Source: Candidatus Gastranaerophilales bacterium
Lineage (GTDB): Bacteria > Cyanobacteriota > Vampirovibrionia > Gastranaerophilales > Gastranaerophilaceae
Direction of reading: 5' to 3'
NCBI GenBank assembly: GCA_944323335.1
Contig: CALUSB010000012.1
Coordinates: 1-51,430, forward strand
Length of the DNA: 51,430 nucleotides
The notes under the pieces are model-generated. The model was not told the origin of the DNA, made no database searches, and saw only the letters and a program-made list of their open reading frames with translations. This document shows, one piece after another, positions 25,648-26,495 of the stretch. Both the position numbers and the translations under genes were made by a program. Numbering within the stretch: the stretch's first letter is position 1; every line of letters starts with the position of its first letter.

Positions 25648-25881
25648 TTAATGCGGCAGAAGCCCCAATATACCTTTAAATATGATATCCATAAGATACA
25701 CAATTATCGTAAAGGCAATTACGACAAACAGAACTACACCTGTTTCAAATATTATTTGATTTTTTTGAGGCCAAGAGATTTTTCCCCATTCAGCCTTTAC
25801 CCCTTTAAAGTAAGCTATAAAGCTTTCTTTAAATGAAGTGTTATTTTCAGATGTTTGTTTTTTTTGTGGTGTATTTGCCAT
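25648..25881 (-). CDS. secE: Preprotein translocase subunit SecE
   Basis: 77 residues: a polar N-tail, the amphipathic F-K-G-V-K-A-E-W-G-K-I-S-W-P motif that clamps SecY, and one membrane span (~44-66). This is the single-span short form found in most bacteria. It is positioned between tRNA-Trp and nusG, as in many genomes, but separated from the tRNA by the repeat array. Confidence 0.93.
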   Translation of the reverse strand: MANTPQKKQTSENNTSFKESFIAYFKGVKAEWGKISWPQKNQIIFETGVVLFVVIAFTIIVYLMDIIFKGILGLLPH

Positions 25882-25936
25882 TATATTTGCCTTATTTCTT
25901 AATACGGACTATTTTTTTGCCAAGAAACTTATTAAA

Positions 25937-26149
25937 ATCGCGCCCTTGTGGACTTGAAGTCCCTTCGACACGCGCTTTTGCGCAGATACCGAAACCGTTT
26001 TCTTAAATTGTATCCTGATGGACTTGAAGTCCCTTCGACACGCGCTTTTGCGCAGATACCGAAACCGTTTTCTTAAATTGTATCCTGATGGACTTGAAGT
26101 CCCTTCGACACGCGCTTTTGCGCAGATACCGAAACCGTTTTCTTAAAAT
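25937..26149 (-). repeat. Three 70-bp tandem repeats resembling the 3' half of tRNA-Trp
   Basis: A 57-bp core is identical at 25951-26007, 26021-26077 and 26091-26147, and a 13-bp linker is identical between copies. The period is 70 bp. Read on the minus strand, each unit lines up with the 3' half of the adjacent tRNA-Trp: the T-arm-like GGGACTTCAAGTCC matches the tRNA T-arm region, and GTGTCGA is shared. The last unit ends in a copy of the acceptor strand (GGGCGC) and the flank ATTTTAA. The anticodon arm is replaced by a TGCGC-AAAA-GCGCG hairpin. In the two inner units GTATC pairs with GATAC, closing a ~50-nt two-hairpin domain (26010-26059, 26080-26129). Confidence 0.95.
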
Positions 26150-26222
26150 CGCGCCCTGAAGGACTCGAACCCTCGACATCCGGTTTTGGAGACCGACGTT
26201 CTACCAACTGAACTAAGGACGC
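26150..26222 (-). tRNA. tRNA-Trp (anticodon CCA)
   Basis: 73 nt with a full cloverleaf. The acceptor stem is GCGTCCT/AGGGCGC with discriminator G; the D-arm is GTTC-AGTTGGTA-GAAC; the anticodon loop CTCCAAA gives CCA; the variable loop has 5 nt; the T-loop is TTCGAGT. The 3' CCA is not encoded. It is located between rpmG and secE on the same strand, a common arrangement. Confidence 0.97.
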
Positions 26223-26264
26223 AACCTAAACTATTAACTTGTCAACCCGTTCAGTTGGTAGAAC
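26198..26264. repeat. Perfect 16-bp inverted repeat of the tRNA D-arm
   Basis: GTTCTACCAACTGAAC at 26198-26213 (the tRNA D-arm region seen on the plus strand) and its exact reverse complement at 26249-26264, separated by 35 bp. In the minus-strand transcript the upstream arm is antisense to the D-arm of the tRNA that follows. A GGACC-GTCG-GGTCC hairpin lies a little further upstream (around 26281-26296). Confidence 0.9.
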
Positions 26265-26327
26265 ATATTTTTGAACTATCGCGGACCCGACGGTCCACTC
26301 GCAACTGAACTTAATATGCAACTAAGA

Positions 26328-26495
26328 CTATTTTGTCTCTTTATGAGTTGTGTGTCTTTGGCATCTTGGGCAGTATTTGCTAAGTTCCATTCTTTCTTTA
26401 AGAGTCTTTTTATTTTTTGTAGTTGTATAGTTTCTTTCCTTGCATTCTTCGCATGCCAGTACAACCATCTTGTCGTTTTTGCCTTTTATACCCAT
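26328..26495 (-). CDS. rpmG: 50S ribosomal protein L33
   Basis: A 55-residue frame starting [18 protein letters not shown]. It has two CxxC pairs (C-E-E-C and C-P-R-C) that bind zinc, the N-Y-T-T-T-K-N-K-K core and the H-T-T-H-K-E-T-K end that typify L33. The ATG at 26495 has AAAGGAG ~6 nt upstream. It is first in the rpmG-tRNA-Trp-secE-nusG-rplK-rplA unit. Confidence 0.95.

Follow-up and report, generated by a model that had tools for sequence, protein, structure and literature searches.

Units built from their own tRNA flank many tRNA genes of a Gastranaerophilaceae genome

Many tRNAs of this Candidatus Gastranaerophilales genome (G000) carry two-sided units, each built from its own tRNA, and the tandem array behind tRNA-Trp is one piece of this larger tRNA-flanking architecture. 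The array lies in the 51,430-nt stretch of DNA analysed here (the window). The original prediction described a phenomenon of the 3′ side of tRNA-Trp only; this view has to be given up, as units were found on both sides and around many tRNAs. The 5′ units are conserved and structured. Our preferred reading, modelled from sequence and predicted folds and given a probability of roughly 40 %, is that the units would act in cis as RNA, as conserved tRNA-specific antisense hairpins that compete with folding of the precursor tRNA.

The tRNA-Trp locus

A repeat search of the window returned three direct repeats (25935-26007, 26005-26077 and 26075-26147; spacing 70 and 70), and TRF placed an array at 25949-26147 (period 70, 2.8 copies, 100 % matches, score 398). 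As the runner-up array of the window scored 69, the 70-bp array is not attributable to chance, and both searches confirm the three 70-bp units originally described behind tRNA-Trp (Table 1). ORF order likewise bears out their position between tRNA-Trp and secE: with names taken from translations and gene order, the genes run rpmG, tRNA-Trp, secE, nusG, rplK and rplA, and rpmG-trnW-secE-nusG is likely a co-transcribed unit.

Table 1. Annotated features of the tRNA-Trp locus (window coordinates)
Feature	Position	Strand	Basis
rpmG-like ORF, 55 aa, ribosomal protein L33, upstream neighbour	26328-26495	minus	Translation and gene order
Entire 5′ unit per model R1 (the leader box TTGACAAGTTAATA is partly covered)	26230-26313	minus	82.2 bits, E 1.3e-14 (the R1 alignment contains this sequence itself)
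5′ unit, segment A: repeats the D-stem/D-loop strand of the tRNA (GTTCAGTTG)	26302-26310	minus	Sequence
5′ unit, core E: 7-bp hairpin GTGGACC-GTCG-GGTCCGC	26281-26298	minus	Covariation count, fold
5′ unit, segment A′ (GTTCTACCAACTGAAC)	26249-26264	minus	Inverted repeat, 16 nt, 100 %
tRNA-Trp (CCA), gene with copied ends	26149-26223	minus	ARAGORN
tRNA-Trp (CCA)	26150-26222	minus	Rfam RF00005, 65.9 bits
3′ unit 1, closest to tRNA-Trp	26078-26147	minus	Repeats, TRF, fold prediction
3′ unit 2, same sequence as unit 1	26008-26077	minus	Repeats, TRF, fold prediction
3′ unit 3, most distal; terminates in intact acceptor strand and trailer (GGGCGCGATTTTAA)	25938-26007	minus	Sequence
secE-like ORF, 77 aa, downstream neighbour	25648-25881	minus	Translation and gene order

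The description of the units as tRNA-derived and rich in hairpins is supported by alignment and folds. Each aligns with the 3′ part of the tRNA, sharing GTGTCGA and a T-arm-like hairpin, and the distal unit does close with a copy of the acceptor strand and its flank, both as originally claimed. Unit 1 consists of a GCGC-AAAA-GCGC hairpin, a fold-back T-arm (GAAGGGACTTCAAGTCC) and a changed acceptor tail; the GC-rich AAAA-loop hairpin reappears in the predicted folds of the 3′ units (units 1-2: -19.7 kcal/mol, z -2.7; unit 3: z -1.55). The domain said to be closed by GTATC/GATAC appears as a predicted fold in two units. Its closure is not conserved: GATAC was found in a single one of 13 distinct Trp 3′ units of relatives, the one common to the own species and its nearest relative, and this comparison rules out the closure as a conserved feature.

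The original prediction overlooked an equally striking 5′ unit of tRNA-Trp (26249-26310). Its segment A′, located in the leader, is the exact reverse complement of the whole tRNA-Trp D-arm (26198-26213) and is near invariant among 23 distinct Trp 5′ units. Beyond the part paired with A, the antisense continues with GTTCTAC, which is complementary to tRNA-Trp nt 20-26, lies outside the closing stem and is nearly invariant across six genera. The acceptor part of the segment A copy has decayed in the own genome and is intact in G003 (TGCGTCCTTAGTTCAGTTG).

Similar units follow tRNA-Trp in related genomes, as had been anticipated, with copy numbers of 0 to 3, and copy numbers differ among relatives on both sides of the gene. 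Relatives of the same genus carry a complete Trp 5′ unit that is sometimes repeated (L003, L009, L012), in the order tRNA nt 1-19, hairpin, antisense D-arm, leader, and then again. Since relatives G004 and G009 lack the 3′ units and G013 lacks units on either side of tRNA-Trp, the units are dispensable in these genomes. All genomes are draft assemblies, in which short-read assembly may collapse arrays.

tRNA-specific units across the genome and the family

A survey of about 30 tRNA loci of the own genome revealed a common plan. A 5′ unit comprises a sense copy of nt 1 to about 14-19, core E, the antisense of about nt 26 to 7 and a leader box (consensus close to TTGACAATTRAATA), followed by the tRNA; a 3′ unit comprises an antisense T-arm, a core or hairpin and a sense copy of the tRNA 3′ end, the two arms abutting directly in Trp 3′ units (GAAGGGACT-TCG-AGTCCTTC in G002). 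Core E typically forms one or two hairpins and is recognisably common to the Trp, Arg, Val and Ala units (a hairpin, then AGTTCA-AAAT) despite their differing tRNAs. Some units also retain the sense D-stem 3′ strand immediately before the antisense (GTAGAGC-TT-GCTCTACC for Phe in G099; GAGAGC-A-GCGCTC for Met in G007); such a unit can therefore be read as the first third of the tRNA folded back on itself, E being an insertion in the D-loop. Examples in the own genome include Val-TAC, Arg-CCG, Arg-CCT, Asp, Gly-TCC, Phe and Leu-CAA on the 5′ side, and Asp, Glu, Leu-CAG and Phe on the 3′ side. The 3′ unit of the Asp, Glu, His, Pro and Leu-CAA tRNAs sits beyond a strong terminator-like hairpin; for Asp and Glu the layout is terminator, antisense T-arm, hairpin, 3′-end copy with encoded CCA and second terminator.

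Specificity for the own tRNA was assessed by scanning the flanks of each tRNA for its own sense and antisense sequences. A pair passed with a sense copy of ≥10 nt together with an antisense of ≥9 nt, both limits being fixed, and swapped tRNA-flank pairs served for comparison. In the own genome, examples from which were viewed before the thresholds were chosen, 9/28 own pairs passed on the 5′ side and 4/29 on the 3′ side, versus 0/756 and 0/782 swapped pairs. Other genomes are the fairer test for that reason. G007, of the same genus, returned 7/32 own versus 4/1011 swapped pairs on the 5′ side and 3/33 versus 0/1042 on the 3′ side. Three further genera, chosen because model R1 (see below) had matched them, gave 5′ own pairs of 8/35 (G173, versus 13/1148 swapped) and of 4/31 and 5/32 (G277 and G099), with about 1 % or less of swapped pairs. 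No own-tRNA units were detected in G020 (another genus), in G045 (another family) or at the nine tRNAs seen of G057.

R1, a covariance model of the 5′ unit built from 22 sequences, was used to follow the distribution of the units. In the own genome it returned 13 matches, and all 12 that are listed with coordinates lie directly upstream of tRNAs. All 15 genomes of the genus carry matches (4-15 each), as do 98 of the 288 genomes of the family (E 0.01 or better); these positives fall in 23 of the 41 genera, where weak single matches may be chance. Across a sample of 386 genomes of the phylum (E 0.001), R1 matched only this family and one genome of another family in the same order. The Trp unit also occurs in the MAG records Kiruna2 and Ja1, taken as freshwater samples; the family comprises gut as well as freshwater bacteria.

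Several further observations were made around these loci. A motif close to the leader box consensus (window 26232-26245) stands before the tRNA and before each sense copy in most unit-bearing leaders, and also before some related tRNA-Trp genes without units; it may serve as a signal for antitermination or processing. On contig C7 of G000 (L076), the units preceding tRNA-Ala(GGC) bear a sense copy of the adjacent tRNA-Val(GAC), a sequence relationship that suggests possible conversion or spread of units between adjacent tRNA genes. Upstream of tRNA-Tyr (L065 and L183) lies a 175-nt structured element that begins with a copy of tRNA-Tyr nt 1-14; comparison of G000 with G007 gave only 10 differences, and the element could represent a separate RNA gene. 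A match to the AdoCbl-II riboswitch (37.4 bits) was found downstream of tRNA-Leu(CAA) (L094:1204-1269). Many contigs terminate at or within about 200 bp of tRNA genes (G000 C11, C19, C22 and C24; G007 C3, C5, C7, C12, C15, C23, C25 and C28), as would be expected if flanking repeats stop assembly; the units may thus hinder short-read assembly of these genomes.

RNase P RNA genes are unusual in unit-bearing genomes (L396:1-310, G000 C44; L397:1165-1583, G007 C19; L398:626-1122, G173 C3; L399:560-877, G277 C22). In three such genomes the contig is interrupted within the 5′ portion of the gene, the RNA of G007 and G173 is enlarged near the P12 region by a structured segment of >100 nt, and in the two members of the genus the hairpin close to the 3′ terminus of the model (probably P18) is missing; in unit-free genomes the RNase P RNA matches are full-length and without breaks. 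After the RNase P RNA (L396:310-579, L397:1006-1165) lies a perfect palindrome with 17-nt arms (CCAAAACCCCAAAATAC...GTATTTTGGGGTTTTGG) that is partly repeated 112-212 nt further along, and non-tRNA stable RNA genes may therefore carry similar repeats.

A possible folding switch and its rivals

The proposed switch would work on the nascent precursor. The antisense segment would pair with the upstream sense copy, an order of events that transcription would favour by letting A pair with A′ before the tRNA emerges, and the tRNA would then be free to fold. Where the sense:antisense hairpin is unformed or opened, the antisense would capture the real D-arm (or T-arm) and maturation would be blocked. 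The unit would thus act on precursor-tRNA processing as a kinetic folding switch or as a brake, and core E would be a putative binding site for a regulator.

Predicted folds are consistent with such competition. The minimum-energy fold of the tRNA-Trp leader joined to its tRNA pairs the antisense with the D-arm, while each part folds separately as expected. Across tRNA loci, joining a 110-nt leader to its own tRNA gained on average 10.1 ± 4.4 kcal/mol over the separate folds through leader-tRNA pairing, versus 2.1 ± 3.2 kcal/mol for swapped tRNAs and 1.0 ± 1.7 for unit-free genomes, in sequences pre-selected for complementarity before the calculation and with energies that predict the stability of the competing fold only, not its formation.

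The comparative data concern conservation. Across six genera, 23 distinct Trp 5′ units show 96 % pairing in the inner hairpin, where 5/7 pairs have changed on both sides; the core E hairpin is kept with compensatory changes across six genera. The whole Trp 5′ structure has a covariation score of 0.237, versus 0.100 ± 0.013 under a shuffle that leaves the relatedness of the sequences in place (0/500) and at most 0.069 in slid controls; the closing stem hardly varies and therefore says little on covariation. Between G000 and G007, the Tyr, Val, Met, Phe and Leu units are 6-15 % different, versus 33 % at fourfold sites of rpmG, secE, nusG, rplK and rplA, and the Trp unit diverges by 1.6 % versus 16 % at fourfold sites in G009 and by 8 % versus 46 % in G006.

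Several points count against the switch. Copy number varies, and the relatives named above do without 3′ units or, at tRNA-Trp, without any. For Asp, Glu, His, Pro and Leu-CAA, transcription would reach the 3′ unit only by reading through the preceding hairpin. Pairing of A with A′ is not universal, because the sense and antisense arms of the Phe (G099) and Thr (G173) units are each locked in separate local hairpins, and the conservation of A and A′ could alternatively stem from conversion by the tRNA gene. The main rival is template switching during replication: switching at the D- and T-arm palindromes would make fold-back copies, tandem duplication would multiply them, and further switching and conversion would maintain complementarity, with no regulatory role. 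We lean against this explanation while taking it to be a real possibility. The units do look like fold-back copies of tRNA ends, as in the Phe (G099) and Trp 3′ (G002) examples given above, their copy number differs between species, and the antisense D-arm of tRNA-Trp lies 35 nt from the D-arm, one of the reverse-complement copies that adjoin their source at many tRNAs, as template switching would leave them. It would also cover the equal treatment of both tRNA ends, whether transcribed or not, and thus the 3′ units beyond terminator-like hairpins, and PMC8794818 reports that template switching creates RNA hairpins and compensatory changes. However, the cores are not copies of tRNA, yet they are alike between tRNAs and conserved across genera, including the unpaired AGTTCA; the units evolve several times more slowly than fourfold sites and have been kept in small genomes; and D- and T-arms exist in every genome, yet the units recur in many genera of one family and are unseen elsewhere in the phylum.

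A mobile or selfish hairpin element that targets tRNA genes (REP/BIME-like, integrase-linked or retroelement-like), with the tRNA copies as displaced target ends, is less likely than template switching and in our view improbable. It would accommodate the core common to different tRNAs, the expanding arrays, the patchy distribution and the distal unit, which closes with a displaced tRNA 3′ end and trailer as after integration into a tRNA gene. Yet the listed R1 matches of the own genome all stand directly before tRNAs, and a single element would not bear the sense and antisense ends of a different tRNA at each site. Neither phage and plasmid records nor viral contigs, searched by pattern, gave a match to the units. 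Y1 transposase (PF01797) was absent from G000, G007 and G014, and reverse transcriptase (PF00078) from G000 and G007; PF01797 occurs in 4/16 genomes without relation to the units, and both enzymes were rejected as drivers, being absent from G000 and unrelated to unit presence.

The original prediction favoured small tRNA-mimic RNAs, freed by processing of the transcript and acting in trans on RNases, the synthetase, the operon or, in an extended form, other precursors. The position of the array within the likely co-transcribed rpmG-trnW-secE-nusG unit, the predicted structure of the units and the presence of RNase P RNA genes in 9/10 genomes searched are compatible with this, but release by tRNA processing cannot be the general explanation because several 3′ units sit beyond terminator-like hairpins. 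Nor does anything point to a role specific to TrpRS or to this operon, because the same design surrounds tRNAs for many amino acids; we consider trans-acting RNAs unlikely. Least plausible of all, and barely credible to us, is that the units are decoys which draw integrating elements away from the tRNA genes: integration often targets tRNA 3′ ends and arms, and the tRNA-end copies adjoin the gene and on the 3′ side include the trailer, but the antisense arms, the conserved core and the 5′ units would be left unexplained. On visual inspection, matches to integron attC sites, IS200/IS605 guides, T-box and group I intron motifs were weighed and set aside. A nested giant tRNA-like fold was abandoned too, since at many tRNAs just one of the two sides carries units.

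Relation to known systems and significance

The rtT repeats of E. coli tyrT, which immediately follow their tRNA gene in tandem and each contain a copy of the tRNA 3′ end, were originally proposed as the nearest formal parallel, and they remain so. They belong to one tRNA operon, on its 3′ side, and yield a stable released RNA and a small basic peptide. The Trp array resembles them in its three 70-bp tandem units directly downstream of the tRNA and in repeating the tRNA 3′ end, exactly so in Trp unit 3 and in unit 1 of G006; in contrast to rtT, the units described here measure about 70-100 bp, occur on both sides, have antisense arms and concern many tRNAs genome-wide. Like REP/BIME sequences they are short, hairpin-forming, intergenic and multi-copy in variable number, but their arms are tRNA-specific, no Y1 transposase (RAYT) was found in this genome and, among the matches listed with coordinates, they adjoin tRNAs rather than being dispersed between unrelated genes. 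T-box leaders share with them a leader RNA, alternative pairing and the involvement of tRNA; whereas T-boxes sense tRNA and control other genes, the controlled gene here would be the tRNA itself. Rfam searches gave no T-box match in the window or in 11 tRNA loci down to E 0.5 and no family for the units down to the same E value, and at the gathering score the tRNA itself was the sole Rfam 15 match of the window.

Attenuators with 1:2 versus 2:3 pairing offer a parallel in their mutually competing segments, here three (A, A′ and the real tRNA), but the 5′ unit has no terminator and the competitor is the tRNA body. Elements integrated at tRNAs leave a displaced tRNA 3′ end downstream (att duplications); here only about 70-100 bp separate the copies, no recombinase is present, the 5′ end is also concerned and there are antisense arms. 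Template-switch inverted repeats (quasipalindromes; PMC8794818) are similar in placing reverse-complement copies beside the original with compensatory changes, and differ from the units in that the latter recur at many tRNAs and have a shared non-tRNA core and strong conservation.

A search of the open-access literature found no description of such tRNA-flanking units. To our knowledge, no bacterium is known to regulate a single tRNA at the stage of precursor folding with an antisense element private to that gene. Should the units be mutational products instead, they would offer a natural example, of unusual clarity, of structured repeats beside tRNA genes being generated and upheld time after time by template switching. 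If the folding switch holds, a possibility that we advance tentatively and with some doubt, one bacterial family would control individual tRNAs through private antisense hairpins in leaders and trailers, a genome-wide, per-tRNA folding switch with a shared structured core.
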